From a virus, in IMG/VR virus record IMGVR_UViG_3300018021_000024, positions 1-20,738 of that record: 20,738 bases of DNA. The stretch is one strand, 5' to 3'. The notes under the pieces were generated by a model. The model saw only the letters and a program-made list of their open reading frames with translations. It searched no databases and was not told the origin of the DNA. The translations under genes were made by a program, and so were the position numbers. This document shows positions 2,336 to 18,280 of this stretch, piece by piece; the stretch's first letter is position 1, and every line of letters begins with the position of its first letter.

Positions 2336-2343
2336 TATAAATA
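2336..2343 (+). promoter_or_regulatory. T4-type late promoter core TATAAATA (1)
   Basis: Exact TATAAATA just after the stop of the second exported-protein gene. In T4 this octamer occupies about -13 to -6 and is read by gp55-bound RNA polymerase without a -35 box. Transcription would start near 2349 and drive the lipoprotein gene at 2429. Confidence 0.65.
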
Positions 2344-2389
2344 ATAATGAACACATTCCTTTTCGTCTAATAACTTATTCTTTCACGCT

Positions 2390-2406
2390 GTTGTGATACT
2401 CACAAC
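2390..2406 (+). promoter_or_regulatory. perfect inverted repeat in the lipoprotein gene leader
   Basis: GTTGTGA, a three-base loop TAC, then TCACAAC: a perfect 7-bp stem about 40 bases after the predicted start of transcription and 10 bases before the AAGGAG site. It could be an RNA hairpin affecting translation or stability, or an operator. No T-tract follows, so it is not a terminator. Confidence 0.4.
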
Positions 2407-2428
2407 ACAACTAACTAAGGAGTACTAT

Positions 2429-2842
2429 ATGAAAAAACTAATTTCAATTTTTCCATTACTAGCTTTTCTTTTTTGTAGTCTAGCTGGATGTTCAACTACA
2501 GCACAGGTAACTGTAGGTGATACATTTATTGCCATGCATGATCTTGTAAAAACTGGAGCTATTGCTTCTGATTCACTCTGTAAAGCAAAGACTATTCCCG
2601 CAGCAGACTGTGCGGCTATTTCTAAAGCCTATCAGAAAATTCAATTAGTATGGCCTGTAGTAGATGATGCACTTATAATCTATCTGAAATCAGACCCTAC
2701 TGATGCATTAGCAACTCAAAATTTCCAAGCTGCACAAGCTCAATGGAGTGCTGCTTATTCCGATATGCTTACTCTTCTTACTAAGACAGGCGTAATCAAA
2801 ACAACTACCGCAACTACAACTGCAAATACTGGAGGTAAATAA
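2429..2842 (+). CDS. small lipoprotein
   Basis: A 137-residue protein with a lipoprotein signal: MKK, hydrophobic LISIFPLLAFLFCS, and lipobox LAGC with the acylated Cys at residue 21. The mature part is Ala/Thr-rich and looks helical, contains two further Cys (SLCKAK and AADCAA) that could pair, and ends in a low-complexity Thr/Ala tail. The ATG at 2429 has AAGGAG at 2417-2422; an in-frame GTG 36 bases upstream lies inside the leader inverted repeat and is not used. Phage lipoproteins of this size include outer spanin subunits and superinfection-exclusion proteins. No inner spanin partner is visible, and the sequence does not choose between these roles. Confidence 0.75.
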   Translation: MKKLISIFPLLAFLFCSLAGCSTTAQVTVGDTFIAMHDLVKTGAIASDSLCKAKTIPAADCAAISKAYQKIQLVWPVVDDALIIYLKSDPTDALATQNFQAAQAQWSAAYSDMLTLLTKTGVIKTTTATTTANTGGK

Positions 2843-3012
2843 TGGACCCTATCACTATAATCAACTTAATAGCTACTCTTGTTCCTGTGGCAGAATCTGT
2901 TGGTCTTGACATTGTAACAATTATCCAAGGATTGAAAGCTGGTAAAACTGCTGCACAGTTAGCTGTTGAAGCTGCTGCTAAACGCAACGATCTTCCTGAC
3001 TTGACATTCTGA
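2842..3012 (+). CDS. small hydrophobic helical protein, 56 residues
   Basis: The ATG at 2842 overlaps the stop of the lipoprotein gene (TAATG), which implies coupled translation. The product begins MDPITIINLIATLVPVAES, then VTIIQGLKAGKTAAQLAVE, and ends in a short polar tail. It reads as two amphipathic or weakly hydrophobic helices rather than a certain membrane span. It is the last gene before the terminator at 3092-3144. No family recognised. Confidence 0.6.
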   Translation: MDPITIINLIATLVPVAESVGLDIVTIIQGLKAGKTAAQLAVEAAAKRNDLPDLTF

Positions 3013-3091
3013 GTTTAAAAATCTACAAAAGTTTTACATAGAAAGTAATTTGATCAACAATATCAATTTTTATAACATATTGATTTTAAAC

Positions 3092-3144
3092 AAAAAGCAT
3101 TTTCTCTTGAAATTGATGTTTCTTCAAGAAGAAAATGCTTTTTT
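3092..3144 (+). terminator. rho-independent terminator
   Basis: A long stem with arms 3092-3111 and 3123-3143. AAAAAGCATTTTCT..TTGAA pairs with TTCAAGAAGAAAATGCTTTTT with one bulged base, around an 11-base loop, and ends in a T-run. It closes the transcripts of the left cassette. The last T is also the first base of the next late promoter. Confidence 0.85.
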
Positions 3145-3151
3145 ATAAATA
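3144..3151 (+). promoter_or_regulatory. T4-type late promoter core TATAAATA (2)
   Basis: Exact TATAAATA overlapping the end of the terminator T-tract, a compact stop-and-restart arrangement. The predicted transcription start is near 3157, giving a leader of about 88 bases before the ATG at 3245. Confidence 0.7.
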
Positions 3152-3159
3152 GAAATAGA

Positions 3160-3218
3160 GCAAGTAATCTGTCTGCTGAAACAGAACAGAAACAGGGGAG
3201 CAATCCTGCTGTCCTTGC
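3160..3218 (+). promoter_or_regulatory. structured 5' leader, possible three-way junction
   Basis: GCAAG (3160-3164) can pair with CTTGC (3214-3218) and enclose two hairpins: TCTGT/ACAGA (3168-3172 with 3181-3185) and ACAGGGGA/TCCTGCTGT (3192-3199 with 3204-3212, one bulge, one wobble) closed by a GCAA tetraloop of the GNRA class. It begins within a few bases of the predicted transcript start. It could protect the 5' end, bind a regulator or sense a ligand. No known riboswitch class is recognised. Confidence 0.4.
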
Positions 3219-3244
3219 CATCTTTATTTATCAGGAGCAAAACT

Positions 3245-5542
3245 ATGACAATTTTTGATAATCCCACCGAAACAAAATCTCCACTCGATAATACAGTCGA
3301 TCTTGGCGGATATGAACTTTTGTTTAAAAATTACTACAAGGTTCAAGCTCCAAATATCCTCTGTGAGCTATGGAATCTCTGCTATCCAGGCAAGACCATT
3401 CGTTTTGAATCAAAACAGTTCCTACAGCTAAATTTGATCGTTTCTGACCTATATTCGTGTCATTGTTCTGATTATGAATTCGTTAGATACTCAAGAACAC
3501 GTGAGGATTATACAGGATCATCTAATTTGAGTTATCGTATAGCCCTCAATATTATTGACATTCTGATTGAAAATGATTATGTGTTCAGTATTATCGGACA
3601 GCAACTTGCTCAAAGAACTTCTAGAATGAAAGCAACCGATAAACTTATTGATCTGATTGGTGATCATTCTTTGGTTTTGAATAGAAAAATATCACCAGAT
3701 GATAATTTTGTGATATTAAGAAGCGAAAAAGAAAAACTAGAAGGTAGAGCAAAGAAAGTTGCTCATGATCTTTCATATAACCCTAATGACTTTACTATAA
3801 AAAATAACAAATTCTTGTTTGATTACAATACTCTGGTGAGTAATACATCTTTCAAGGTTGGAGATGAATTCAACCATATTATCAGTTTCGATAGAAATGT
3901 TATGAAAACTGTTTTTAATGATGGTTCTTTTTCTAAAGGTGGTAGATTTTGTGGTACATGGTGGTTGGAATGTAAAAGTAAAATACGTAAATCTATCTTG
4001 ATCGATAACGAAGAAACTTGTGAAATTGACTACAAATGTTCACATCCAACCATTGCATATGCTAAAAAAGGTATTGATGTATCAAACCAGGATTTGTATG
4101 CTGTAAATACTATTGATAATTATCAAGAACATCGTAAATTGATAAAGAAAGTTCTTCTTACATGTTTGAATGCTGTATCTAAAAATAGTGCAGCTAAAGC
4201 AATTGAAACTAACTTTTTAGAATATACGATTAAGAAACATAAAAAAAGAAAAGAAAATAAAATTTTAAAAAAACATCCAGATTATACTGTTTATCAGATC
4301 ATAAATCTTATAAAAGAATTTCATCCTAACATTCAAGAATTTCTATACAACGACTCTGGAAAAAATCTTATGTTTTTAGAAAGAGAAATAGTTTTTGATG
4401 TTTTAAACCATTTCTTAAAAAAAGATATTCTTGTTCTTCCTGTACATGATAGTTTTGTAATTAAGAAAAAATATCAAAAAGAACTAGAAGAAGTTATGCT
4501 ATCTATTTTTAAAACTAAAATGAATGTTAATATTAATATTGAAACTATAACTAAAAATACTAATATTCTTTCTTCTAATTCTTCTAATATATATTCTAAA
4601 TCTTATAATCCTATTTCTTCTAATTCTTATAATCTTATTTCTTCTAATTCTTCTAATATATATTCTAAATCTTATAATCCTATTTCTTCTAATTCTTCTA
4701 ATATATATTCTAATTCTTATAATCTTATTTCTTCTAATTCTTCTAATATATATTCTAATTCTTCTAATATATATTCTAATTCTTCTAATATATATTCTAA
4801 ATCTTATAATCCTATTTCTTATAATTCTTCTAATATATCTTCAAATATTTATTCTAAATCTTATAATCTAACCAATACAACCAACAATAAGGAATCATCG
4901 TATCACTACGTATCCCGGAACGTTTTAATCGAAACTGATACAAATTCGATAGATAACTCAACAAATGTTATGGGAAACGTTTTCAAAAAAGATTGCGTAA
5001 GTAACAAAAAAGTAACAAATTTGGATGTAGTGCGGAACGTTTTCAAAAAAGATTCCGTAAATTTGGATGTAGTGAATAACGTTTTCAAAAAAGATTTGGA
5101 TGTATCGCATAACGTTTTCAAAAAAGATTCCGTAAATTTGTTATCAACAGATGAATGTTTAGGATTTTTTGGAATAGATGATAACGAACAACCAACCAAA
5201 AAAAAGGAGACCCCCATGTCACTAAAGAAAACTTTTGAATCTAAATCAGCAGAAGTCCAGGAAGCGTTGCTTGCTCTTCCAAGAGAACTTACGGAACAGT
5301 ATCTTAAAAAGATGGCAGTGGATCCTACATTTTTCTCTGATGAAGAGATAATAGAAGATTACAAAGCCCAAACTCCAGAAAAAGAAGAGGATTCGTTCTT
5401 TGATTTTGTAAAACAACCAAAAAAAGAGTGGAGCGAAGAAGAATTAGCAATCGCTCGAAGAGAACATCGAGAAGAAGAGAAGAGAAGAAACGACGAATCG
5501 AACCGCCATCGTTTAGTGCAATTCAAAAACATACGAATTTAA
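3245..5542 (+). CDS. family A DNA polymerase-like protein with repeat-rich C-terminal half
   Basis: A 765-residue protein. The ATG at 3245 is chosen because AGGAG (3233-3237) precedes it by 7 bases; an in-frame TTG at 3215 lies inside the structured leader. Residues 1-425 carry an ordered set of motifs like those of family A polymerases: motif A-like DYKCSHP (D262, H267), motif B-like R297-x3-K301 in a hydrophobic helix, and motif C-like LPVHDSF (H401-D402). I recall similar proteins on proteobacterial mobile elements with E-x-DYSGLHP and PVHDSF motifs, mostly unannotated. No 3'-5' exonuclease domain is visible. Residues 440-542 are Asn/Ser/Tyr-rich repeats, 578-628 hold four NVFKKD units, and 658-765 form an acidic, charged tail with its own start signal. 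A polymerase activity is inferred, not shown. Confidence 0.6.
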   Translation: MTIFDNPTETKSPLDNTVDLGGYELLFKNYYKVQAPNILCELWNLCYPGKTIRFESKQFLQLNLIVSDLYSCHCSDYEFVRYSRTREDYTGSSNLSYRIALNIIDILIENDYVFSIIGQQLAQRTSRMKATDKLIDLIGDHSLVLNRKISPDDNFVILRSEKEKLEGRAKKVAHDLSYNPNDFTIKNNKFLFDYNTLVSNTSFKVGDEFNHIISFDRNVMKTVFNDGSFSKGGRFCGTWWLECKSKIRKSILIDNEETCEIDYKCSHPTIAYAKKGIDVSNQDLYAVNTIDNYQEHRKLIKKVLLTCLNAVSKNSAAKAIETNFLEYTIKKHKKRKENKILKKHPDYTVYQIINLIKEFHPNIQEFLYNDSGKNLMFLEREIVFDVLNHFLKKDILVLPVHDSFVIKKKYQKELEEVMLSIFKTKMNVNINIETITKNTNILSSNSSNIYSKSYNPISSNSYNLISSNSSNIYSKSYNPISSNSSNIYSNSYNLISSNSSNIYSNSSNIYSNSSNIYSKSYNPISYNSSNISSNIYSKSYNLTNTTNNKESSYHYVSRNVLIETDTNSIDNSTNVMGNVFKKDCVSNKKVTNLDVVRNVFKKDSVNLDVVNNVFKKDLDVSHNVFKKDSVNLLSTDECLGFFGIDDNEQPTKKKETPMSLKKTFESKSAEVQEALLALPRELTEQYLKKMAVDPTFFSDEEIIEDYKAQTPEKEEDSFFDFVKQPKKEWSEEELAIARREHREEEKRRNDESNRHRLVQFKNIRI
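4562..4870 (+). repeat. AT-rich tandem repeat tract inside the polymerase-like gene
   Basis: A low-complexity tract of about 300 bases built from units such as CTAATATATATTCTAA (six copies) and TCTTATAATC(C/T)TATTTCTTC. It encodes repeated SSNIYS and KSYNPISS, and the + strand is almost free of G. Around 4735-4800 the 21-bp unit for NSSNIYS stands in three direct tandem copies. The frame stays open throughout. The composition would make this DNA easy to unwind. Confidence 0.9.
4976..5129 (+). repeat. four 19-bp direct repeats (iteron-like)
   Basis: Four identical copies of AACGTTTTCAAAAAAGATT start at 4976, 5036, 5078 and 5111, with spacings of 60, 42 and 33 bases. A partial copy (AACGTTTT) begins at 4919. 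Copies 2 and 4 share a further 11 downstream bases. They encode NVFKKD. The exact DNA identity and the adjacent AT-rich tract recall replication iterons set inside a replication gene. A coding repeat expansion is the alternative reading. Confidence 0.9.
5216..5542 (+). CDS. possible separate product from an internal in-frame start (108 residues)
   Basis: Inside the polymerase-like frame, the ATG at 5216 has a strong ribosome-binding site, AAGGAG at 5204-5209, with 6 bases of spacing. That is as good as those of stand-alone genes nearby. The product from this point is a soluble, acidic, charged protein: helical residues near the start (SAEVQEALLALPRELTEQYL), then EEIIEDYK, SFFDFVKQ and a Glu/Arg-rich end. 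It has no visible link to the polymerase motifs. Either the large protein carries this as a C-terminal domain that is also made alone, or it was once a separate gene that fused in frame to the repeat-rich part upstream. The family is unknown. Confidence 0.5.
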   Translation: MSLKKTFESKSAEVQEALLALPRELTEQYLKKMAVDPTFFSDEEIIEDYKAQTPEKEEDSFFDFVKQPKKEWSEEELAIARREHREEEKRRNDESNRHRLVQFKNIRI

Positions 5543-5638
5543 AAATTGTGCTACGAAAAAAAGCAAAATGCTCCTTTTTAAAAAGTTTTTCTAAATAATA
5601 ATAGAGAGAATAACATTCGGAGTACAAAGGAGATCAAA
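5543..5638 (+). other. short intergenic region with a weak late-promoter variant
   Basis: About 95 bases without a convincing gene. It holds TCTAAATA at 5590-5597, one mismatch from TATAAATA, followed by an AAAGGAG site for the next small gene. A weak GCAAAATGC hairpin with T-runs lies at about 5563-5582. Neither element is strong enough to call as functional. Confidence 0.4.
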
Positions 5639-5794
5639 ATGAAAAAAAATGCATTCGGAAGTAGAGATAATATCATGGAAGAAAATTTTGAAGATGAACC
5701 AGAACAAAATTTTGAAAATAAAAGAACAGGAATTAAGCTCTCAAAAAATATAAAATATTTGATATATCTTTCAGAACACCAAGAAGAAAACTAA
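5639..5794 (+). CDS. small acidic hypothetical protein, 51 residues
   Basis: ATG at 5639 preceded by AAAGGAG at 5626-5632, a good ribosome-binding site. The product starts MKKNAFGSRDNIMEE, has an acidic stretch (EENFEDEPEQNFEN), then KRTGIKLSKNIKYLIYLSE, which may be a helix. Composition and codon use match its neighbours. It lies between the polymerase-like gene and a homing endonuclease. No family recognised. Confidence 0.6.
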   Translation: MKKNAFGSRDNIMEENFEDEPEQNFENKRTGIKLSKNIKYLIYLSEHQEEN

Positions 5795-5810
5795 TCCTTC
5801 ATAAGAAGGA
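5795..5810 (+). other. small hairpin after the 51-residue gene
   Basis: TCCTTC, loop ATAA, GAAGGA: a perfect 6-bp stem directly after the stop codon. No T-tract follows, so it may stabilise the transcript 3' end rather than terminate it. Confidence 0.4.
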
Positions 5811-5863
5811 ATCACCCTGTCAACGAATGAACGAACGATCCTCTAACCAAAAGGAGAGTTCAA

Positions 5864-6361
5864 ATGTTAATAGAAATCCATAGTAAAACTTATGGTCAAA
5901 TTTACGCAAAAGTCGATGATCAGGATTATGAAAAAGTTAAAGATTATAAATGGAATATAAATTATAACAAAATATCTCGAAAATATTATGTACGTTGTGC
6001 TAATCTTGATGGACGTAAGAATGTTTATCTCCATCGTGTTATTTGTGAGATACATCGTTTTGATATTCAACATTACAACGTAGATCATATCAATAATAAT
6101 ACTTTAGATAATCATAGTTCCAACCTTCGTCCTTCAACATATTCAGAAAATAGTATGAATTCCTTAAAACGATCTGGAGCATCCTCAATATTCAAAGGAG
6201 TAAGCTGGAATAAATTGTGCTCTAAGTGGATGGCACAAATCCAGGTTGACAAGACAAAATTTTATATTGGACTGTATAAAACACAAACAGAAGCTGCTAC
6301 AGCATTCAACGAAGCAGCTAAAAAATATCATGGTGAATTTGCATACTTAAACGCCGTATAA
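5864..6361 (+). CDS. HNH homing endonuclease with AP2 DNA-binding domain
   Basis: A 165-residue protein of the HNH-AP2 type, a free-standing phage homing endonuclease that cleaves intron- or insert-free copies of its target. The N-terminal part (VDDQDYEKVKDYKWNI...YYVR) is the usual beta-rich lead-in. The HNH core spans about residues 57-95: LHRVI, then VDHINNNTLDN with catalytic-type H75, and SNLR with the terminal Asn. Residues 107-162 form the AP2 domain (FKGVSWN, KWMAQI, YIGLYKTQTEAATAFNEAA, FAYLN). The start has AAAGGAG at 5851-5857. The stop codon lies inside a late promoter core (6357-6364). All the usual parts are present, so it is probably active. Its target site is unknown. Confidence 0.9.
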   Translation: MLIEIHSKTYGQIYAKVDDQDYEKVKDYKWNINYNKISRKYYVRCANLDGRKNVYLHRVICEIHRFDIQHYNVDHINNNTLDNHSSNLRPSTYSENSMNSLKRSGASSIFKGVSWNKLCSKWMAQIQVDKTKFYIGLYKTQTEAATAFNEAAKKYHGEFAYLNAV

Positions 6362-6364
6362 ATA
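6357..6364 (+). promoter_or_regulatory. T4-type late promoter core TATAAATA (3)
   Basis: Exact TATAAATA overlapping the TAA stop of the HNH-AP2 gene. The predicted start near 6370 would drive the small gene at 6397 and those after it. Confidence 0.65.
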
Positions 6365-6396
6365 CAAATATGATATGTAATTATAGGGGGGCTGAA

Positions 6397-6531
6397 ATGC
6401 ATGAGACGCAAGATTATAAAGATTGGATTCAGCGATGTTTCGAAAAAAGTTCTGACAAAGCTTTTTGGTCAGAGATTATACAAAAGCATGAAAACATCTT
6501 CTTTGAAGGAGAGGAGGATGACCAGTGCTAA
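6397..6531 (+). CDS. small hypothetical protein, 44 residues
   Basis: ATG at 6397 preceded by the G-rich site AGGGGGG. The product begins MHETQDYKDWIQRCFEKSS, continues KAFWSEIIQKHEN and ends in an acidic tail. It is probably helical and soluble, with a basic-aromatic pattern but no known motif. Its 3' end overlaps the GTG start of the next gene by 7 bases, so the two are probably translated as a coupled pair. Support is from start signal, position and composition only. Confidence 0.55.
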   Translation: MHETQDYKDWIQRCFEKSSDKAFWSEIIQKHENIFFEGEEDDQC

Positions 6532-6836
6532 TAATATTCAATTCTAAGCACCGAATTTGCCTTGTAGAGCCAGATGATGATCTGTATGATAGTCTGGTAG
6601 CACAATACGAACCAAAAAATACTGTGATCCGTCTGAATTGTCTAAAGTCTTTACCTGATAATATTTTGCTTTCAATTTATAACAATGCTTATCCAAATTA
6701 TACTGTAGAATTCATCAGGAGCAAAAGGCTGATGCTCAAAGCTGTGGATAGATTTGTGTGGAACAACAGCGCTAAATTGTCACCCAAAAAAAAGGAGAAA
6801 TCAAATGGAAAATCAGGACATAAGCCAAAAATGTAA
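6525..6836 (+). CDS. hypothetical protein, 103 residues, GTG start
   Basis: The start is the GTG at 6525, with GGAGG at 6513-6517 at 7-base spacing; the nearby ATG at 6518 is in another frame and gives only nine residues. The product has a beta-like N-terminus (LIIFNSKHRICLVEPDDD), a middle segment with LPDNILLSIYNNAYPNY, and a strongly basic Lys-rich tail (SPKKKEKSNGKSGHKPKM). The tail is coded by the same bases as the ribosome-binding site and start of the next gene, an overlap of 32 bases. The basic tail suggests nucleic-acid contact, but no family is recognised. Confidence 0.6.
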   Translation: MLIIFNSKHRICLVEPDDDLYDSLVAQYEPKNTVIRLNCLKSLPDNILLSIYNNAYPNYTVEFIRSKRLMLKAVDRFVWNNSAKLSPKKKEKSNGKSGHKPKM

Positions 6837-7266
6837 AATTTGTAATAATGAGTACGATGTCATGTTTGATGGTGAATGTATGCCGTGTATTAACAAAAAA
6901 AAATTGTTGTATGCACAAACTAGAGAAATTGTAGCAGGAATAGAAGAAACCCAAACTATCCGTAATTCTCAGCCTAATGAGAGTTATACCCGACGTTATA
7001 ACGAAGAAATCCGTAAGCTTCAGATGACAAAAAAGGAACGTCTCGCAAGCAAAAAACAACGAAGATTTGAAAAAAGAAAAACCGAATATGCAGCAGAACA
7101 TCAAAAAACAACGAGCCATATGGCTAGAATATCAGAAGAATGGAATGCTGTTGCTGAAATGATGGTTAAACTTTATCCAAATGGAATTCGTAAAGACTGT
7201 AATGCTGTGGATTACAAAATTCTTGGAATAACGATCTACAATCTTTTGCTCTCGACGAAAGCGTAA
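6805..7266 (+). CDS. zinc-ribbon protein with basic helical body
   Basis: A 153-residue protein. The ATG at 6805 is chosen for the AAGGAG just upstream; an in-frame extension to 6754 lacks one. Residues 9-29 hold two Cys pairs (CKIC and CMPC) about 11 residues apart, a probable zinc ribbon. The middle (residues 60-105) is highly basic and probably a long helix (Lys/Arg in KKERLASKKQRRFEKRK). The C-terminus (YKILGITIYNLLLSTK) is hydrophobic-helical. Zinc ribbon plus basic helix suggests binding to DNA, RNA or a polymerase. The last 32 bases of the gene are present again at 7968-7998 next to the HNH-NUMOD3 gene. Function not recognised. Confidence 0.65.
   Translation: MENQDISQKCKICNNEYDVMFDGECMPCINKKKLLYAQTREIVAGIEETQTIRNSQPNESYTRRYNEEIRKLQMTKKERLASKKQRRFEKRKTEYAAEHQKTTSHMARISEEWNAVAEMMVKLYPNGIRKDCNAVDYKILGITIYNLLLSTKA
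7230..7261 (+). repeat. direct repeat copy 1 (end of zinc-ribbon gene)
   Basis: A 32-base stretch beginning AACGATCTACAATC and ending CTCTCGACGAAAG. It recurs as a 31-base copy at 7968-7998 with one C-to-T change and one missing T. Copy 1 codes for the last residues of the zinc-ribbon protein. Confidence 0.85.
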
Positions 7267-7267
7267 T

Positions 7268-7801
7268 ATGATTATCTTGGACACAGAGACGTCTGGGCTG
7301 GTGGATGCAGGCTGTTATAATCTCAATAAACAACCAGAAATTTTGGAATTAGCTGCTTTGAAGATAGACGATAATTTTGAAATATCCGACAAACTTGACC
7401 TCTTTTTCAAACCATCAAGACCTATTTCTCCAGGAGCAACATCCATACATAACATCACAAATGAAATGTGTAATGACAAACAATCATTCGCATATCATCT
7501 GGACGAAATTAGAGAATTCTTTCTAGGAGAATGCCATATAGCCGGTGCTAATGTTCCGTTTGATATTGGAATGTTGAAGATCGAGCTAAGAAGATTAGGG
7601 CAAGAATATAAGTTTCCGTGGGGATGGTATTACACAGATGTTATTGATGATACAAAAAATTTCAATGGGTTTCGGTTGAAATTAGTTGATATTTATGAGA
7701 GAATATGTGGTAAATTACCAAAAGATGTCAGTGCGCATTCTGCTCTTGTTGATTGTATCATGACTTTTAGGATTTTGGATAAAATGCGAGTGCGAGTATA
7801 A
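7268..7801 (+). CDS. DnaQ-like DEDDh 3'-5' exonuclease
   Basis: A 177-residue stand-alone exonuclease of the DnaQ/RNase T superfamily, which removes nucleotides from 3' ends using two metal ions. All five catalytic positions are visible: D5 and E7 in LDTETSG (Exo I), D99 in NVPFD (Exo II), and H157 and D162 in HSALVD (Exo III, DEDDh type). SIHNITNEM is the usual segment between Exo I and Exo II. The length matches a single exonuclease domain without a polymerase. The start lies one base after the stop of the zinc-ribbon gene and has only a weak site, which suggests coupled translation. The stop overlaps a late promoter core. It could proofread for the exonuclease-lacking polymerase-like protein at 3245, process RNA or degrade host DNA; the sequence does not say which. 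Confidence 0.9.
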   Translation: MIILDTETSGLVDAGCYNLNKQPEILELAALKIDDNFEISDKLDLFFKPSRPISPGATSIHNITNEMCNDKQSFAYHLDEIREFFLGECHIAGANVPFDIGMLKIELRRLGQEYKFPWGWYYTDVIDDTKNFNGFRLKLVDIYERICGKLPKDVSAHSALVDCIMTFRILDKMRVRV

Positions 7802-7804
7802 ATA
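7797..7804 (+). promoter_or_regulatory. T4-type late promoter core TATAAATA (4)
   Basis: Exact TATAAATA overlapping the TAA stop of the exonuclease gene. The predicted start at about 7810 falls inside the ribosome-binding site of the tiny gene at 7822, so the leader would be very short. Confidence 0.65.
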
Positions 7805-7839
7805 AGATAGGAGATAATATCATGGAACCGATATTACAA
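7797..7839 (+). repeat. duplicated promoter/start segment, copy 1
   Basis: Late promoter core, GGAGATAATA ribosome-binding site and ATGGAACCGATATTACAA. This block recurs at 8766-8812 with small gaps upstream of the ATG and 18 identical bases from the ATG on. The two copies bracket the HNH-NUMOD3 gene. Confidence 0.85.
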
Positions 7840-7896
7840 GGAATGATAGTTACATTTTTGTTTATAATTATAGTAATATACATTTGTAAAAAGTAA
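7822..7896 (+). CDS. tiny single-span membrane peptide, copy 1 (24 residues)
   Basis: ATG at 7822 with AGGAGAT directly upstream and its own late promoter. The peptide is MEPILQ, then one hydrophobic span (GMIVTFLFIIIVIYIC) and a KK end, giving an N-out or N-in single-pass topology with a basic tail. A paralogue of 27 residues with the same first six residues and same layout lies at 8795. Conservation of promoter, start and hydrophobic pattern across the two copies argues that both are translated. Tiny phage membrane peptides may act as lysis regulators or inhibit a host membrane protein; this role is inferred. Confidence 0.6.
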   Translation: MEPILQGMIVTFLFIIIVIYICKK

Positions 7897-7916
7897 AATA
7901 ATATAGACAGAATAAC

Positions 7917-8003
7917 ATGAATTATACACAAACTTATCAACAACTTATTGAAAAATTGCGAGTTCGCAACGATTTACAATCTTTGCTCTCGACGAAAGGA
8001 TGA
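7917..8003 (+). pseudogene. probable remnant of a homing endonuclease N-terminus
   Basis: An open frame of 28 codons starting ATGAATTAT, as does the intact HNH gene at 8011. Its product (MNYTQTYQQLIEKLRVRN) resembles that protein's N-terminus (MNYQKIYQNIINNRQ) and other phage HNH leaders, then stops matching at the second copy of the 32-base repeat. No good ribosome-binding site is visible. It looks like the broken start of an earlier endonuclease copy, joined to a duplicate of the zinc-ribbon gene end. It could instead be a short leader peptide for the endonuclease. Confidence 0.45.
7968..7998 (+). repeat. direct repeat copy 2
   Basis: A 31-base copy of the end of the zinc-ribbon gene (7230-7261), with one substitution and one deletion. 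It is located 13 bases before the HNH-NUMOD3 start and could mark the junction of a mobile-gene insertion or local duplication. Confidence 0.85.
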
Positions 8004-8010
8004 GAAATTA

Positions 8011-8748
8011 ATGAATTATCAGAAAATATATCAAAATATTATCAACAATCGTCAACAAAATTTACCATCTGGTTATACAGAAAAGCATCATATTGTTCCT
8101 AAATGTTTGGGAGGAACTAATAAAAAAGAAAATTTAGTTAAACTTACTGCTAGAGAACATTTTATAGCGCACCAACTGCTCGTAAAGATTTTTCCTAAAG
8201 AATATGGTCTGATTTATGCTGCATTTAGGATGAGTAATTTTAAAAAATATGGAAGTAAAAAATATGCATGGTTGAGAGAATTACATTCGATAAATTTATC
8301 AGAACGTCAAAAAGGAGAAAAAAATCATTTTTACGGGCAACATCATTCTTTAGAAAGTATACAAAAAATGTCAGAATCTAAAAAAGGAAAAATTTTTTCA
8401 GCAGAGACCAGAAAAAAAATGTCTGAAGGTCAAAAAGGAAAAATTTTTTCAGCAGAGACCAGAAAAAAAATGTCTGAACGTCAAAAAGGAAAATTTCTTT
8501 CAGCAGAGATACGAAAAAAAATATCAGAATCTGCTAAAGGAAAAATTCTTTCAGCAGAACATAAAAAGAAATTGTCAGAAAGTCAAAAAGGAAAAATTTT
8601 TTCAGCAGAACATAAAAAGAAACTGTCAGAATCTAGAAAAGGAAAAACACCAAATAAAGGAAAAATTTTTTCAGCAGAACATAAAAAGAAAATGTCTGAA
8701 TCTAGAAAAGGAAAAAAATACCAAATAAAGGAAAAACACCAAATCTGA
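8011..8748 (+). CDS. HNH homing endonuclease with NUMOD3 repeat array
   Basis: A 245-residue protein. The ATG at 8011 is preferred because the product then begins MNYQKIYQ, the usual start of this family; an in-frame extension reads through the duplicated repeat. The HNH core follows: EKHHIVPKCLGG (H26, H27), TNKKENLVKLTAREHFIAH, with the second metal-site His in HFIAH. Residues from about 105 form six NUMOD3-type DNA-binding repeats of 17 residues (GK-(I/F)(F/L)SAE-x-(R/K)KK(M/I/L)SES-x-K), partly near-identical in DNA (51-bp unit). The end looks frameshifted: an A-run at 8712-8718 changes GKTPNKGK-type coding into GKKYQIKEK, while the familiar coding continues in another frame to a stop near 8755. 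It is flanked on both sides by copies of a tiny membrane-peptide gene. Confidence 0.85.
   Translation: MNYQKIYQNIINNRQQNLPSGYTEKHHIVPKCLGGTNKKENLVKLTAREHFIAHQLLVKIFPKEYGLIYAAFRMSNFKKYGSKKYAWLRELHSINLSERQKGEKNHFYGQHHSLESIQKMSESKKGKIFSAETRKKMSEGQKGKIFSAETRKKMSERQKGKFLSAEIRKKISESAKGKILSAEHKKKLSESQKGKIFSAEHKKKLSESRKGKTPNKGKIFSAEHKKKMSESRKGKKYQIKEKHQI
8378..8705 (+). repeat. 51-bp tandem coding repeats (NUMOD3 array)
   Basis: Six near-identical units coding for 17 residues each, one interrupted by a short GKTPNK insertion. The first two full units differ by a single visible base. Such recent tandem copies imply slippage or unequal exchange. Confidence 0.8.
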
Positions 8749-8765
8749 AGAAATAAAAAAGAAAA

Positions 8766-8773
8766 TATAAATA
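8766..8773 (+). promoter_or_regulatory. T4-type late promoter core TATAAATA (5)
   Basis: Exact TATAAATA 17 bases after the HNH-NUMOD3 stop. The predicted start near 8779 lies at the AAAGGAG site of the second tiny membrane-peptide gene. It is also the first promoter upstream of the terminase genes. Confidence 0.65.
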
Positions 8774-11159: not shown

Positions 11160-12751
11160 TCAAAGAATATATAAGAAAATGGTTGGATATTGATAAAAAT
11201 GATACTCCTACTAATGATATTGAACGTGTAAATCCAGTTTCGAGTATAATGACACAAGCATATGCTCAAGGTGCTCCAATTACAGATGTTTCTACTAAGT
11301 TCGATACACCAAAAGCTGGAGGACAAAATACACAAGCTTTAGTTCCTGTAATTGGTCCTGATCCTGTTAACAACCAAACTCCTGAAGCTGTTCCTTTTGG
11401 TCCTTTGCAACCAATAGGACCATTCTATCAAGCACAGATGAAGGATCGTATTCGTGATTATAGACAAGGATTCAACCTTGAATATACTCCTGGATATACA
11501 AAATCTAATACATTTGCTACTCTCAGAAACTTTGCTGATAATTATGATCTATTAAGATTGTGTATCGAAACCAGAAAAGATCAGATGTGTGGTTTAAATT
11601 GGGATATTAGATATAAAGATAAAAGTAAAGATGCCGACAAAGATTGTGAAGCTGTTATAGATTTCTTTAAGTTTCCTGATGGAGAACATAATTTTTATAG
11701 TTGGATGCGTATGTTGCTAGAAGATATGCTAGTGATTGACGGAGTTGCTATTTATCCACGTGTTACAAAAGGTGGAGAATTATTGAGTCTTGACCCTATT
11801 GACGGTTCGTTGATTTCTTTGAAAATAGATGCATTAGGACGTAGACCAAAACCTCCTTCTACTGCATACCAACAAATATTAGTAGGATTACCTGCTGTTA
11901 ATTATTGTGCGATAGATATGAGTCCAAAACCGATAGCAGTTCCTGGTTCTGAATTGATATATAATATCAGAAATCCTAGAACACATGCTCTGTATGGATT
12001 TTCGTATTGCGAACAGATATTGATGATCATCAATATAGCATTACGGAGAGAAGTAAATCAGTTGCAATATTTTACCGAAGGATCATTGCCAGATTTGTTA
12101 ATAGGTCTTTCTGATGATCTTACTGCTGATCAAATAAACGATATGCAAGAATTGTTTGATACATTACTTTCTGGTAATACAGCAGAACGTAGAAAAACAA
12201 GATTCATCCCTGGAAAAGATGTTAAATTTTTTGATACAAAAGAACGTACTTTAAAGGATGATTTTGATGAATGGTTGGCAAGAATAGTATGTTATTGTTT
12301 CAGTCTACCAGCTACTCCATTTGTAAAGGGTAATAACAGAGCAACCGCTGATACAGCTAAAGAGAGTGCTGAAGAAGAAGGATTAGAACCTATCAAACGA
12401 TGGTTCAAAGAACTTATAGATATGATCCTTGCTAGATATTTTAGCCGTGATCTTGAATTCATTTGGGATGAAAATAACAGTATTGACCCACTTACACAGG
12501 CAACGATTTTTAAAACTTATCTTCAAGAGTATGTTATGAGTCCTGAAGAAGTTCGTGAAGCACTTGGTATGAAAGGTGATGCTCCTGTGAAACCATTACT
12601 TCCATTACTTGGTCAACCTACAACGAATCCTGATGGTACTCCAGCAACTCCTGAAGAAACACCATCCACTGAACCAGAACCATCACCAAAAGGTGTCACA
12701 AAATCTACAACACCTAGAAAGAAACGTAGTGAAGCAACAGAGAAAAAATAA
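11156..12751 (+). CDS. portal protein
   Basis: A 531-residue portal, the dodecameric ring at the head vertex through which DNA enters and leaves. It follows the terminase genes and has the usual layout: a disordered Pro/Gly/Gln-rich N-terminal region (residues 15-85), then a core with LRNFADNYDLLRLCIETRKDQMCGLNW, the WMRMLLEDMLVIDGVAIY helix typical of portals, the LDPIDGSLI segment, YGFSYCEQILMIINIALRREV (stem/crown-type helix), and a C-terminal LPATPF...NRATADTAKE motif region common in siphovirus portals. The tail (residues 480-531) is Pro/Thr/Lys-rich. The start ATG overlaps the previous stop (ATGA). The length is normal. A capsid gene does not follow directly: four other genes lie between. 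Confidence 0.85.
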   Translation: MIKEYIRKWLDIDKNDTPTNDIERVNPVSSIMTQAYAQGAPITDVSTKFDTPKAGGQNTQALVPVIGPDPVNNQTPEAVPFGPLQPIGPFYQAQMKDRIRDYRQGFNLEYTPGYTKSNTFATLRNFADNYDLLRLCIETRKDQMCGLNWDIRYKDKSKDADKDCEAVIDFFKFPDGEHNFYSWMRMLLEDMLVIDGVAIYPRVTKGGELLSLDPIDGSLISLKIDALGRRPKPPSTAYQQILVGLPAVNYCAIDMSPKPIAVPGSELIYNIRNPRTHALYGFSYCEQILMIINIALRREVNQLQYFTEGSLPDLLIGLSDDLTADQINDMQELFDTLLSGNTAERRKTRFIPGKDVKFFDTKERTLKDDFDEWLARIVCYCFSLPATPFVKGNNRATADTAKESAEEEGLEPIKRWFKELIDMILARYFSRDLEFIWDENNSIDPLTQATIFKTYLQEYVMSPEEVREALGMKGDAPVKPLLPLLGQPTTNPDGTPATPEETPSTEPEPSPKGVTKSTTPRKKRSEATEKK

Positions 12752-12784
12752 CATTAACGTAACACAATATTAGGAGGATTAACA

Positions 12785-13237
12785 ATGGCAACTTCAGGGA
12801 AAGCAAATTTTTTACAAAATAAGTATTTCGATTTTCTCTTTCGAGCACAAACATTTACACCAGCAGCTACACTGTATGTAGCACTTTTCACAACTACTCC
12901 CACAGCTTTAGCTGCTAGTGGAACAGAAGTCAGTGGTGGATCGTATGCTCGTCAGTCTATTACATCTGGATTGACTCAGTGGGCAGGTACGCAAGGAGCT
13001 ACAACTACTGCTGTTAGTTCTGGAACTGGTACATCTGGTCTTCAGACTTCTAACAATGCAGCTATTACATTTCCTACTGCTACCGCAGGATGGGGAACTG
13101 TAAATGGTTTTGCTATCTTCGATGCAGTTACAAGTGGAAACATGCTGTATTTTGCTCCATTAACTACACCACAGACTATTGCTGTTGGTAACATCGCATC
13201 ATGGGCAATTAGCGCATTAGTAGTTAACGAAGTTTAA
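12785..13237 (+). CDS. small beta-rich virion protein (phage structural family)
   Basis: A 150-residue protein with an AGGAGG site and ATG at 12785. Its pattern is that of a common phage family: LYVALFTTTPT, then GSYARQSI, NAAITFPTATAGWGTVNGFAIFDA, GNMLYFAPLTTPQTIAVGNI and an SWAISAL end. Homologues are usually labelled hypothetical or tail fibre-like and lie near head or tail genes. The fold is probably a beta sandwich that binds the particle surface. It is followed by a strong terminator. A role as head decoration or fibre accessory is inferred from its place inside the head module. Confidence 0.7.
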   Translation: MATSGKANFLQNKYFDFLFRAQTFTPAATLYVALFTTTPTALAASGTEVSGGSYARQSITSGLTQWAGTQGATTTAVSSGTGTSGLQTSNNAAITFPTATAGWGTVNGFAIFDAVTSGNMLYFAPLTTPQTIAVGNIASWAISALVVNEV

Positions 13238-13246
13238 TTTCAATCG

Positions 13247-13290
13247 AAAAATGGTTTTGATCCCAATACTATAGGGACAAAACCATTTTT
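13247..13290 (+). terminator. rho-independent terminator
   Basis: AAAAATGGTTTTG plus TCCC (with one bulged A) pairs with GGGACAAAACCATTTTT around a nine-base loop, and the stem ends in a T-run. It closes the terminase-portal transcript before the fibre-like gene. Confidence 0.85.
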
Positions 13291-13305
13291 ATTTAGTGGA
13301 CTATT

Positions 13306-16299
13306 ATGGCAATAGCATTCGTACAAGGAAATAGTGGAAGTCCAACACAATCTGGTAGTTCAGGATCGTATGTATATACGTATACTGTAACTGGTGGTAC
13401 TGCTGGTAATCTTGTATTTTTTGGTGTATTAAACGCATTCGTGTATACATGGACTAATTCTTCTTCTACAAATTTGAATTCTATTACACCTTTATATTCA
13501 TATACCGCTAGTGGTGAATCAATATTAGTATATTCAGCTATTATTACTTCTGGTGGTTCATATTCAATTAGTAATGATACAGGATATGCATCATATACAG
13601 GAACTATATATGCTGCTGAATTTTCTGGATGTAATAATAGTTCTTATATAGATTCTTCTAGCAGTAATATTGGATATTCAACATCAATAACAACAGGAAA
13701 TTTAGTTACTGCTGCTGGCGAATTAATATTAGCATTTTGTTATGATGATTCGTCATTTACTTCAGGACCATCTGGGTTTTCTACAGTAGATGGTTCAACA
13801 TTGAACATGGTTTATAATATAGAATCTTCACAAGGAACTTATAATCCTACTTGGGTAGGATCAAGTATTACTTGCTGGGGAGCATATGGAGTTTCAGTTA
13901 AAGTTTATGATCCTTCGGTAAATATATCAGGATCATCTTTTGGTGTTGCTTCTGTAGTAGATAATGGATTTACACAATCAGTAGCATTATCTGGAGAAAT
14001 TAATAGTATTGGATCGATGGCAGCAAATATGCATGGTCTTGCTGCTAATGTTCAAGGAACTGCTACTGTTAGTACTTCAAATATAACATTAACTGTTTTA
14101 TTAGCAGGAATCGTTCAAGGTACTGCTACTATTTCAGGAAGTGTAACACAACGTAACGCATTAGTTGGAACTGCTCAAGGAACTGCTACAGTTGGTACTC
14201 CAAATATAACATTAAGAACTACAAAAGGTTCTGTTGCAGAAGCTAATACATGTTCTGTTACAATTACAGGAGGAATTGCTGGTAATTTAGTAATTATAGG
14301 TGTTGCTGAAGAAGATAGTTCAACTCCAAATCTTGCAACTTCTATGTTTAGTTCTTCTACAAATGTTGGAATTTTTGGTATTTTAGGTACAGAATCTACT
14401 AATAATACTGAAAACATTAGTTCAACTTTATTATACACCACAGTAACATCAAATGGAAGTTATACTATAACATACACAAACTCTAATGCTCTTGATATTA
14501 CTATAGGAGTAGCAGAATTTTTGGGTTGTAATACAAAAACTCCTTTAAATTATTCTGCTAAGAAGAATGGATATTCAACCAATCCAAATTCTTCATCTTT
14601 AACGGCTTCTATTAACAATATAATGGTTGGTTTAGCTATCAATTTTAATGATACTAGTATGACTTTACCATCAGGATATTCATCTATATTTTCTGATTAT
14701 ACAGGTTGGAATCCTGGTTTTAATATGTGTTATAAACTTATGACATCATCAGGATCGAGTAATCCTACATGGACAGCAGCACCAGATTATTGGGCAGCAT
14801 CAGCAGTAAGTCTTAATACAAATACATATACATTGAATCAATCTATAGCATTATCAGGAACAATATCTAGTACTGGAACGATGGTAAATAATGGTTTTGG
14901 TACATTACGTGGAATGGCAGCAACAGCATACGGAACAGCAACCGTTTCTGATTCTGATGGTTTTAATGTTACAATCCCATTGAATTCTGTTTCTTATGGG
15001 ATAACTAGTGTGTCTGATACAATTTTAACACAATATGTCCCATTGAATTCAGTATGTTATGGGGGTAATACTTCTTCTTTGGCTGATGGAACCGTTTCTA
15101 GTACAACACCTATTGCAGCTATTGTGAATGGTATTGCGTCCGTTTCGGGTGATATGAATCAAACTGTACCATTAACAGCAACAGTAAATGGGGTAGCAAA
15201 TTTTACTGATTTTCTTACAAATTCTGAAGTTGAATATTGTACTGGTGAAGTTTTTGGTTTTGCGTCTGTTTCTGGTGCATTGAATACATATATACCTCTT
15301 ACAACAACCGTAAATGGTGTTGCAACGGTTTCTGGAACAGAGAATGCTATCATACCATTAGTTTCTATAGTAAATGCTGTAGCGAGTGTTTCTGGTAATG
15401 CTACGCAAGAAAATAATTTAACAGGAATAGTTCAAGGAGTTGGATCAGCAGTTGCAGCATTGAATATTGCTATTGCTAATTATTGTGTTGGTACAGTTCA
15501 AGGAACAGCAACAGTTTCTGGTAATATGAATCAAACTGTACCGATGTCTGCAACTGCATATGGAGTAGCAGCAGCAACAGCAGTTGCTTATACAACAAAG
15601 TTTATGTCTGGAGAATCTGATGGTATTGCTTCATTAACAGGAACTCCACAATATCAAATATTAGGAAATGTCCAGGGTACATCAGTAGTTTCTGGAGATA
15701 TGAATAACATAATTCCATTATTAACAACTGTATATGGAATTGCAAGTATGTCTGGAGAAGTTGGAACTGGTTCTAATGCTACAGCATATGGTAAAGCAAC
15801 CGTAATTGGTGATATGAATACTCAGGTGTTTATGTCTGGAACAGCAAATGGTATTGGTAGTTCTACTTTTGCTCTGAATACTACACAATTTATATCTGGA
15901 GAAGCAGATGGTGTTGCTTCAGTAACTGGTAATACAAACGCTATAATTCCTCTACAATCGATTGTTTATGGTCAGGGCATAGTATCAGGTGCAGCAAATG
16001 CTACAATTCCTTTAAAGGCAACATCACAAGGAACAGCAATAGCAACAGGAAGTGTTACTTTAGTTGATGCTAATATTCATCTTTCAGGAATTGTTTATGG
16101 TGTTGGTAGTGGGGAATTAAAAACTATTATACATAAATCATTATCAGGAATAGCGTATGGAGTTGGATCAGGATCAATGTTCGTTCCTACAAGACCAGGA
16201 AATGTTTTTGTTTGTCCTCAAGAAGAACGAGTATTACTGATGAATAATGAAGAACGTTTATGGACTTGTCCAAAAGAAAAACGTATTATAAAAATTTAG
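13306..16299 (+). CDS. 997-residue repetitive fibre-like protein
   Basis: A large Gly/Ser/Thr/Val-rich beta protein. It has two copies of a ~200-residue domain (about residues 1-205 and 305-505) that share TGG-x-AGNLV, AEF-x-GCN, GYST, NPTW and WGAYG/WAAS landmarks. Around and after them run many short units of the pattern (V/A)xG(V/T)A(S/T)VSG-x-PL, about 20-30 residues each (residues 206-304 and 505-960). The end (VFVCPQEERVLLMNNEERLWTCPKEKRII) is a different, charged hairpin-like tip. The ATG at 13306 has only a weak GTGGA site. Such proteins form elongated surface fibres or decorations. Its position between portal and protease suggests the head rather than the tail, but this is inference. 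No promoter is visible after the terminator. Confidence 0.7.
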   Translation: MAIAFVQGNSGSPTQSGSSGSYVYTYTVTGGTAGNLVFFGVLNAFVYTWTNSSSTNLNSITPLYSYTASGESILVYSAIITSGGSYSISNDTGYASYTGTIYAAEFSGCNNSSYIDSSSSNIGYSTSITTGNLVTAAGELILAFCYDDSSFTSGPSGFSTVDGSTLNMVYNIESSQGTYNPTWVGSSITCWGAYGVSVKVYDPSVNISGSSFGVASVVDNGFTQSVALSGEINSIGSMAANMHGLAANVQGTATVSTSNITLTVLLAGIVQGTATISGSVTQRNALVGTAQGTATVGTPNITLRTTKGSVAEANTCSVTITGGIAGNLVIIGVAEEDSSTPNLATSMFSSSTNVGIFGILGTESTNNTENISSTLLYTTVTSNGSYTITYTNSNALDITIGVAEFLGCNTKTPLNYSAKKNGYSTNPNSSSLTASINNIMVGLAINFNDTSMTLPSGYSSIFSDYTGWNPGFNMCYKLMTSSGSSNPTWTAAPDYWAASAVSLNTNTYTLNQSIALSGTISSTGTMVNNGFGTLRGMAATAYGTATVSDSDGFNVTIPLNSVSYGITSVSDTILTQYVPLNSVCYGGNTSSLADGTVSSTTPIAAIVNGIASVSGDMNQTVPLTATVNGVANFTDFLTNSEVEYCTGEVFGFASVSGALNTYIPLTTTVNGVATVSGTENAIIPLVSIVNAVASVSGNATQENNLTGIVQGVGSAVAALNIAIANYCVGTVQGTATVSGNMNQTVPMSATAYGVAAATAVAYTTKFMSGESDGIASLTGTPQYQILGNVQGTSVVSGDMNNIIPLLTTVYGIASMSGEVGTGSNATAYGKATVIGDMNTQVFMSGTANGIGSSTFALNTTQFISGEADGVASVTGNTNAIIPLQSIVYGQGIVSGAANATIPLKATSQGTAIATGSVTLVDANIHLSGIVYGVGSGELKTIIHKSLSGIAYGVGSGSMFVPTRPGNVFVCPQEERVLLMNNEERLWTCPKEKRIIKI

Positions 16300-16301
16300 A
16301 G

Positions 16302-16309
16302 TATAAATA
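16302..16309 (+). promoter_or_regulatory. T4-type late promoter core TATAAATA (7)
   Basis: Exact TATAAATA just after the fibre-like gene. The predicted start near 16315 leaves a leader of about 9 bases before the ATG at 16324. Confidence 0.65.
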
Positions 16310-16323
16310 GAGAAGAGGTATAT

Positions 16324-16608
16324 ATGAAACCATTCATAGTAAAAGCAGGAGAAACTATAATCAATTTAGGTTTGGATTTTGCTCCTAGATTGATAGTAGG
16401 AGAAACCATTGCTTCGGTTACTGTTCCAGGAATTACTAGTGTTATTGTGATTAACTCTACAGAATACGATGGTACAGTTGCGACAGCTTCGATTACTATT
16501 CAGAATATTGTTGATCAGGATGTAGTTCTTGTATATACAGTTATTGGAACTCAAGGAAGTGAACGTATTGGTAAACGATTGATATCAATTCAGAGTCTTT
16601 CTGACTAA
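16324..16608 (+). CDS. small Ig-like structural protein, 94 residues
   Basis: A beta-rich protein with no signal peptide: KPFIVKAGETIINLGLDFAP, then TIASVTVPG, VIVINSTEYDGTVATASITI and VLVYTVIGTQGSERIGKRL. It resembles small phage proteins that lie beside capsid and fibre genes (pattern: DTI..S.V....G..I..........V...I......Y.V...I.T..G......). These probably decorate the head or join fibres to it. The ATG at 16324 lies 15 bases after a promoter core with a weak AGAGG site. Function inferred from pattern and place. Confidence 0.6.
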   Translation: MKPFIVKAGETIINLGLDFAPRLIVGETIASVTVPGITSVIVINSTEYDGTVATASITIQNIVDQDVVLVYTVIGTQGSERIGKRLISIQSLSD

Positions 16609-16633
16609 ATTATAACCATCAAAATTTTTTGAA

Positions 16634-16641
16634 TATAAATA
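16634..16641 (+). promoter_or_regulatory. T4-type late promoter core TATAAATA (8)
   Basis: Exact TATAAATA in the short gap before the protease gene. The predicted start near 16647 lies just before GGAG (16649-16652), a leader of about 13 bases. Confidence 0.7.
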
Positions 16642-16659
16642 GTAATATGGAGTAATCAT

Positions 16660-18255
16660 ATGATTGATAATGACAACATTGAAATTTTTCTTGATATAAC
16701 CAGAATTGACAAGGATAAACATATTGTCGAAGGTTATGGTTTACGTTCTGATACCAAAGATTCATACGGAACAACCATAGATCATGATGATGCTGTTAAG
16801 TGTATGGCAGATTATGATAAATATCCTGCCATAAGAGCTATGCATCAAACCGATGTTGCTGTTGGTAAAACCATCGATTATGTTGCTGATGGAAAAGGAA
16901 TCAAGATAACTGCAAAAATTGTAGATGATGATGCCTGGAATAAGGTAAAAGAAGAAGTATATCGAGGACTTAGTGTTGGAGCTAAACAAGCATATACTGA
17001 ACGTAATGGTAGAAATATAGGAAAATGTAAACCATCTGAATGGCAAGACGGAGATATTCTACATCTTGCATCTATTACAGAATTTAGTCTTGTTGATAGT
17101 CCTTCTCACAAAGGATGCCCGTTAGTATACAGAATCGATTCTAAGGAGTCTAATGATATGAAAAAAGAAATTAAAGTAGAAGAAGTTAAGATAGAAGATG
17201 TTGTAAGACAGGAAGAAGTAGCACCTAGACCTGATGTTAATCCAAAAGAAGGTGCAAAGAAATATGGTTCTGTAAAATTTGCTGATGCTAAGAATAAAAA
17301 GTATCCGATTGATTCAGAGAAACACATCAGAGCAGCTTGGTCATATATCAATATGCCTAAGAATGCTGGTAAATATTCTTCTGAAGATGTTGCTGCTATC
17401 AAAGCAAAGATTGTATCGGCCTGGAAATCTAAGATTGATAAAGAAGGTCCACCTTCTGCTGATGTAAAGAAAGCTGATGGTGTTGATGTAGAACGTTGTA
17501 CATGTGATCCTTGGTGTACTTCTTATGTTTCTGATGAAATTGATGATTGTATGAATGCTATCTATGCTCTTCAGCAGATCAAGGGACTTCTTAGTAGAGA
17601 AGAAGGCGAAACTGACCCTGAAGATTCCGAAGATGGAAAACAGATTGAAGCATTAGAACTTGCTATGCAAGCTATCAAAGATTTCATTGCATCTGAAATC
17701 CAGGAAGACAATACAGTAGAAAAGGCTGATACGGATATAGATGTTGAACGTGTTGGTGCTGCTATTTCTGCTGAAAACAAAACTCATTCACAAAGTATTC
17801 ATGATGCATCAGTAGAACTTGGTGCTGTTTGTAAATGTAACAAATGTGACATGGTAGACGGAAAATCACCACAAGATAACGGGGATCCTTCTAACAAAGA
17901 AACCGATGATGTTACAAATTCAGCTACTGCTGATATTACAAGAGTAGCTAAAACTCTTTTTGAAACAGAAGAAATTACTACTATTGATTCGTTGGTTAAA
18001 CGTGTTGCTGTTGAACTTAAAACTCTCAACGAAAAAATAAAAGTATTAGAAGCAATTCCTGCTGCACCTTCTGTTTCTGATGTTGTAACAAGAGTAATCA
18101 CAAAAGACGGTGAAATTGTAGTTGAGGATAAGGTTGATGTAAAGAGACTTGAAGATACCGATTACTTCAAAAATTCTAATGCTCAAACACAAGCTTTATT
18201 GCTGATCAAAGAGGCTAGACGCAACCAAGGACCACAAACAAATAGAAAATTTTAA
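16660..18255 (+). CDS. prohead protease fused to DUF6582 and scaffold-like domain
   Basis: A 531-residue protein directly upstream of the second capsid gene. Residues 1-170 look like an XkdF/HK97-type serine protease: IRAMHQ with H62, GLSVGAK with S105, and ITEFSLVDSPSHKGC after it, the usual His-Ser arrangement and the E-x-SLVDxP motif. Residues 198-264 match the DUF6582 pattern (KYGSVKFADAKNKKYPID, HIRAAWSYINM, AAIKAKI). The rest is acidic and helical (residues 300-370, 430-531), with Cys-rich patches CTCDPWCT and CKCNKCDM, as expected for a scaffold that is cut out during maturation. The start at 16660 has GGAG nearby and its own late promoter. The fusion of protease and scaffold saves a separate scaffold gene; none is seen elsewhere. 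Confidence 0.8.
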   Translation: MIDNDNIEIFLDITRIDKDKHIVEGYGLRSDTKDSYGTTIDHDDAVKCMADYDKYPAIRAMHQTDVAVGKTIDYVADGKGIKITAKIVDDDAWNKVKEEVYRGLSVGAKQAYTERNGRNIGKCKPSEWQDGDILHLASITEFSLVDSPSHKGCPLVYRIDSKESNDMKKEIKVEEVKIEDVVRQEEVAPRPDVNPKEGAKKYGSVKFADAKNKKYPIDSEKHIRAAWSYINMPKNAGKYSSEDVAAIKAKIVSAWKSKIDKEGPPSADVKKADGVDVERCTCDPWCTSYVSDEIDDCMNAIYALQQIKGLLSREEGETDPEDSEDGKQIEALELAMQAIKDFIASEIQEDNTVEKADTDIDVERVGAAISAENKTHSQSIHDASVELGAVCKCNKCDMVDGKSPQDNGDPSNKETDDVTNSATADITRVAKTLFETEEITTIDSLVKRVAVELKTLNEKIKVLEAIPAAPSVSDVVTRVITKDGEIVVEDKVDVKRLEDTDYFKNSNAQTQALLLIKEARRNQGPQTNRKF

Positions 18256-18272
18256 AGGTAATTTTTAACAAG

Positions 18273-18280
18273 TATAAATA
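18273..18280 (+). promoter_or_regulatory. T4-type late promoter core TATAAATA (9)
   Basis: Exact TATAAATA 45 bases before the capsid start. The predicted start near 18286 gives a leader of about 40 bases that holds the GGAGG site. The capsid gene therefore has the longest leader among the head genes here. Confidence 0.7.

Follow-up and report, generated by a model that had tools for sequence, protein, structure and literature searches.

Exact T4-type late promoter cores at the gene junctions of a siphovirus-type virus: putative late promoters ahead of a non-T4 structural module

We analysed a 20,738-nucleotide (nt) stretch of viral DNA (IMG/VR record IMGVR_UViG_3300018021_000024, positions 1 to 20,738; hereafter the window), in which the octamer TATAAATA, the core of the late promoters of phage T4, recurs at gene junctions. 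An earlier note on this DNA had treated the window as one genome, but it is a join of two viruses: positions 1-3018 are T4-like DNA and positions 3019-20738 belong to a siphovirus-type virus, here called B. The reading that we favour, with a probability of about 0.6, is that the octamers of B are T4-type late promoters that drive a structural module not of T4 type, and that they are read by a gp55-like factor acting on the host RNA polymerase. Judged from the sequence features described below, the octamers are very likely promoters, and their recognition by a gp55-like factor that is encoded by B itself would be the most likely mechanism.

The octamer occurs nine times in the window, always on the + strand (zero exact copies on the minus strand), and the nine coordinates given in the earlier note (Table 1), as well as the strand, the placement at gene junctions and the two overlaps with stop codons, were all exact. 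A count against shuffled sequence, as proposed there, gave a moderate excess for both strands of the whole window: 9 octamers versus a shuffle mean of 3.83, with 9 or more in 2 of 100 shuffles. The position of the octamers is far more telling than this excess. The noncoding share of the window is 6.3% (coding 93.7%), yet seven of the nine octamers are wholly intergenic, the other two (6357 and 7797) overlap only the last five bases of a gene, stop codon included, and none lies within a gene body.

For the statistics on B itself we took window 3019-20738 together with the 6.3 kb of a second contig, L010, that extend beyond the window (24 kb in all, with 1783 noncoding bases on the + strand). 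This set contains ten exact octamers, all at gene junctions: eight in the window and two in the extension (L010:7533 and L010:8734), both upstream of + strand genes, so that the pattern recurs independently in L010. Within the noncoding + strand the ten copies compare with 0.58 expected from dinucleotide shuffles (17-fold; 0 of 1000 shuffles reached 10) and over all B sequence, + strand only, with 2.4 expected (the count being reached in 0 of 1000 shuffles), while the reverse strand of B holds no exact octamer. In the same noncoding strand the 24 one-mismatch variants add up to 6 occurrences versus 7.8 expected, which is the level of chance. Since the exact octamer is enriched and its closest variants are not, the pattern points to sequence-specific recognition and not to AT-richness.

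The arrangement was then compared with that of T4 itself. The late promoters of T4 consist of a TATA box of 8 bases, roughly one turn of the helix upstream of the transcription start, with a preponderance of AT just downstream and without conservation at -35; the exact core is found in 32 of 50 listed sites (PMC2988020). Late transcription of this kind, in which a small sigma factor is activated by the replication clamp, is described as unique to, or as general in, the T4-related family (PMC2988020). The identification of the octamer as this core, made in the earlier note, was borne out by its putative -10 position, by the lack of a -35 element and by an arrangement that matches the late region of T4: in B no TTGACA-like hexamer was found at the usual spacing, nor any strong column conservation upstream. 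The yardstick was a 31.3-kb piece of T4's late region, which has 12 octamers on the strand of the genes and a single one on the opposite strand; eight lie at gene junctions, mostly 14-28 nt from the start codon, and two overlap stop codons by five bases. B is similar in density (10 in 24 kb versus 12 in 31.3 kb), in its two stop-codon overlaps of five bases each, and in spacing, as most octamers lie 14-21 nt ahead of the next start codon and several at 45-93 nt, off the ribosome-binding site. In its exact core, its lack of a -35 element and its start-codon spacing, B thus resembles the gp55/gp33/gp45-dependent late promoters of the Straboviridae. It differs from T4 in the genes that follow (a Terminase_3 terminase, an HK97-type portal and a phrog_13692 capsid protein), in an extra G at -14 and at -5 (seven of the ten sites each), and in that gp55 and gp45 were not found in the fragments examined. 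Bases -5 to -1 of the B sites are 74% AT, slightly above the 66% of the window, which is weak in such AT-rich surroundings. The specificity for the exact octamer, the T4-like spacing and density, the lack of conservation at -35, a purine as sixth base past all ten B octamers, the recurrence in L010 and a terminator-like hairpin that abuts the octamer at 3144 were together counted in favour of working late promoters.

Table 1. Positions of the octamers and of the other features discussed (window coordinates)
Feature	Position	Strand	Remarks
T4-like DNA	1..3018	+	gp23 C-terminal part (1-660), small membrane and secreted proteins, lipoprotein (2429-2842), small protein (2842-3012)
Siphovirus-type part (virus B)	3019..20738	+	L010 99.5% identical over 14045-20738; L009 96% over 9759-14119
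Putative late-promoter octamer	2336..2343	+	T4-like part, upstream of lipoprotein gene; same place in L011-L014
Putative late-promoter octamer	3144..3151	+	upstream of phrog_4756 gene (start 3245)
Putative late-promoter octamer	6357..6364	+	overlaps stop codon of HNH endonuclease gene
Putative late-promoter octamer	7797..7804	+	overlaps stop codon of exonuclease gene; small open reading frame 17 nt on, at 7822
Putative late-promoter octamer	8766..8773	+	followed by small open reading frame (8795), then two genes, the last being the terminase large subunit
Putative late-promoter octamer	10657..10664	+	heads block with portal gene; present in L009 too
Putative late-promoter octamer	16302..16309	+	start codon 16324 is 14 nt on; present in L010 too
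Putative late-promoter octamer	16634..16641	+	start of presumed protease gene (16660) is 18 nt on; present in L010 too
Putative late-promoter octamer	18273..18280	+	upstream of major capsid gene; present in L010 too
Strong hairpin with U-run, terminator-like	3092..3143	+	RNA fold -20.9 kcal/mol, z -5.6; abuts octamer 3144
phrog_4756 protein	3245..5542	+	phrog_4756 E 2.8e-54; repetitive C-terminal half
Terminase large subunit, PBSX/Terminase_3 family	9315..10646	+	PF04466 E 1.6e-37; TIGR01547 158 bits
Portal protein, HK97-type	11156..12751	+	PF04860 E 2.8e-16; phrog_2662 E 1.4e-64
Presumed head maturation protease/scaffold, DUF6582 mid-protein	16660..18255	+	PF20223 E 3.5e-25; precedes capsid gene as in phage MMB025
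Major capsid protein, phrog_13692	18326..19897	+	phrog_13692 E 1.8e-111; 39% identity to Brevundimonas phage proteins

By the genes tested, B is a siphovirus-type virus and not a T4-like one. Two further contigs, L009 and L010, are, by their sequence identity to the window, other contigs of the same virus, and T4-like DNA was not seen in either. The terminase of B is of the Terminase_3/PBSX family and its capsid protein of phrog_13692, and not of the gp17 and gp23 types that mark a T4-like virus. B also encodes a head-tail connector, and the gene order in L010 is capsid, connectors, presumed tail tube and TP901-type tape measure, with no tail sheath gene seen in L010; a capsid module that is followed by a tape measure gene, and no sheath gene, make up, from genes alone, the siphovirus-type arrangement. 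What had struck the earlier note, a T4 core ahead of siphovirus-type terminase, portal, protease and capsid genes, therefore stands for the eight sites in B, while the site at 2336 is no surprise, because it sits in T4-like DNA. If exact T4-type late promoters do precede an unrelated capsid and tail module, this kind of late-gene timing could pass from one phage lineage to another or emerge in several of them independently.

From the sequence we infer promoter activity with late timing, gp55-like recognition and coupling to a clamp, which would work together as follows. Each octamer would act as a -10-like TATA box without a -35 element at the head of a block of structural or packaging genes, and transcription would start 5-7 bases past it, to give a short leader that carries the ribosome-binding site. 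A small gp55-like factor, encoded in a part of B beyond the contigs seen, would probably direct the host RNA polymerase core to the octamers, and a sliding clamp would perhaps couple the late transcription of B to its replication, as in T4.

Several results weigh against this reading. Neither gp55 (phrog_234, phrog_12791) nor gp45 (phrog_223) had a match in the window and ten related records, although these negatives neither refute nor support a gp55-type dependence, since all 11 records are fragments. A tblastn search of phage records with T4 gp55 matched 1951 records, and among the matches listed, an even sample, all were T4-type phages of at least 147 kb, bar one partial T4 record. That the sixth base past the octamer is a purine at all ten B sites is a weak observation, as the downstream region is purine-rich anyway. 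Moreover, the relatives of B gave no comparative support. Closest among the phage records are the Brevundimonas phages Polewnik and Strzyga (portal 43%, capsid 39% identity); capsid identity ranges over 39-51% across these two and the IMG/VR contig L043, of which the gene order (capsid, connector, tail) is syntenic with B. Unlike B, these three have a G+C content of 55-59%, and Polewnik and L043 contain zero copies of TATAAATA. Around 90 capsid-relative loci (1.36 Mb) hold 18 octamers in total and none shows the pattern of B; the pattern was likewise not seen in four phages with near terminases, and, apart from L010, a search with the tape measure protein led only to distant contigs that are rich in G+C and lack the octamer. 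The octamer pattern thus does not characterise the sampled members of B's family, in a comparison that is confounded by base composition, all of the ~90 capsid relatives being richer in G+C than B.

The octamers might be real promoters that are read by a factor other than gp55, be it an alternative sigma factor of the host, a phage sigma factor unrelated to gp55 or an RNA polymerase of the phage, possibly the phrog_4756 protein; we regard this as possible but unlikely. The lack of a gp55 match in the fragments fits such a reader, as do the additional conserved G residues at -14 and -5, and there is a precedent: Escherichia phage rV5 carries a T4-late-like motif upstream of its late genes with no detected gp55, gp33 or gp45 (PMC3606486). 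Like B, rV5 is a phage outside the gp55 group that carries a motif of this kind (PMC3606486), so that the motif alone is no proof of mechanism; unlike that of B, its motif is degenerate (TggTAaAAtA), and the genes tested show no link between the two viruses. Promoters of the gp55 type are nevertheless the simplest match for the exact T4 octamer, its spacing and the missing -35 element.

As to the candidate polymerase, the alignment of the phrog_4756 protein conserves the motifs HP, D, R...K and LPVHDS, which suggests a family-A polymerase core, and the family-A fold is common to single-subunit RNA polymerases. A role as single-subunit RNA polymerase was not confirmed: the profile of the T7/SP6 RNA polymerases aligned with the HDS motif only, at a non-significant probability of 0.2%, the family-A DNA polymerase profiles likewise touched only HDS (~0.2%), a PDB profile search with the protein gave nothing credible, and the single-sequence fold had a predicted local distance difference test (pLDDT) score of 32. 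Its relatives are common to ICP1 and other Vibrio phages, and the genome of ICP1 has no octamer excess, which also speaks against this protein as the reader. As an observation in its own right, the polymerase-like part is fused in the protein of 3245-5542 to a long region of Ser/Asn/Tyr repeats (at 4573-4846 the DNA is tandemly repeated, in units of 21, 45 and 66 bases).

The T4-like part of the window provides a second virus with the same octamer. Its first 660 bases encode the C-terminal part of the T4 gp23 major capsid protein (Gp23 PF07068, E 9e-28), and a search with this piece gave eight contigs, four of which (L011-L014) match window 1-3018. These four are ~99% identical to the window, the identity breaks off at 3018 in all four, and beyond the equivalent position they carry a DUF1353 gene instead of B DNA. 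The longest of them, L013, has gp14- and gp15-type genes upstream of gp23 and, after the DUF1353 gene, a T4-type terminase (Terminase_6N/6C, gp17) and a tail sheath gene (gp18), the gene set of a T4-like virus. The T4-like contigs L011-L017 (G+C 32-35%) carry 4-9 octamers each on the strand of the genes, several of them conserved across two T4-like lineages that are 82-86% identical over most shared parts. They resemble B in having the octamer at junctions and in their dinucleotide signature, and differ from it in their true T4-type structural genes (gp14, gp15, gp23, gp17, gp18) and in mostly having A at -5, where B mostly has G. The signature distance is 0.039 between B and L013, as compared with 0.036 between L013 and L015, 0.033 between two parts of T4 and 0.057-0.094 for AT-rich control phages; this closeness, although no proof, suggests compatibility with a host common to B and the T4-like virus.

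These observations bear on two further scenarios. In the first, which we rate as possible but unlikely, a siphovirus lineage unrelated to T4 would have acquired the whole T4-type late programme, promoters and reader, by exchange with a T4-like virus that shares its host; the join at 3018 would record such an exchange. In the second, B would not encode the reader but would borrow it, in a satellite-like or opportunistic manner, from a T4-like virus that infects the host alongside it. The identical octamer in L011-L017, a signature distance as small as that within the T4-like lineages, with the common host that it suggests, and the joining of both DNAs in the window would agree with borrowing, but B has its own module for packaging, capsid and tail, with synteny to L043, the two viruses differ next to the octamer (mostly G at -5 in B, A in the T4-like virus), and a similar signature does not prove a shared host; we judge it improbable.

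The join at 3018 may be an assembly chimera or a natural recombinant. It falls directly behind a gene end, and no shared repeat that would explain a misjoin was found (no exact match of at least 18 bases between window 3019-9700 and the T4-like contigs). The T4-like part of the window is a distinct strain, with 29 differences from L011-L014 in one 100-base block in the signal-peptide region of the lipoprotein, and three differing bases in the last 40 before 3018. Searches for further contigs of B with the phrog_4756 protein, with the exonuclease and with an exact 20-mer close to 3230 recovered no relatives and no second contig over the left end of B, in a collection that may not include records very close to the window. 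The octamer finding survives the join because eight sites lie in the B part, with support from L009 and L010. The idea that a chimeric contig merely simulates the pattern, the promoters being those of T4-like DNA, would agree with the T4-like nature of 1-3018 and with the different continuation of four contigs, but it is very unlikely, given that eight of the nine sites lie after 3018 amid siphovirus-type terminase, portal and capsid genes and that L009 and L010, free of T4-like DNA, carry four of these eight and two more junction sites. It is just as hard to credit that the octamers are chance matches or AT-rich spacers ahead of ribosome-binding sites with no promoter role, as the 66% AT of the window and the moderate both-strand excess might suggest, in view of the 17-fold enrichment of the exact octamer alone, its absence from the minus strand and the several sites at 45-93 nt, away from the ribosome-binding site. 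An archaeal-type TATA box was rejected on general grounds: with the octamer 14-21 nt before many start codons that have clear ribosome-binding sites, a transcript start ~25 nt on would fall inside the genes.

A number of minor observations were made along the way. Within B, 13306-16299 encodes a 997-amino-acid protein of repeated Ser/Thr/Gly-rich modules without a Pfam or PHROG match, with a gp80-type fibre gene on one side and the next putative late promoter on the other. Positions 1-284 of L009, the 5' part of the terminase gene, are ~68% identical to the window versus 96% for the rest, which suggests a recombination point inside this gene; the divergent part holds one TATAAATA inside coding sequence. 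No Rfam families were found in the window. In the T4-like part, the lipoprotein and small-protein pair (2393-3018) is present in L011-L014, no copy of it was found in L015-L017, which are related T4-like contigs, and the signal-peptide region of this lipoprotein is highly variable among strains. L013 has a gene for a papain-family cysteine protease (14209-14967 of that contig) between its gp17 and gp18 genes. At 7797-8870 of the window, the octamer and the ribosome-binding site are duplicated together with the first codons of a small open reading frame (MEPILQ...), and the two copies flank a NUMOD3 homing endonuclease gene (7948-8748), of which the C-terminal part is built of 51-base repeats.

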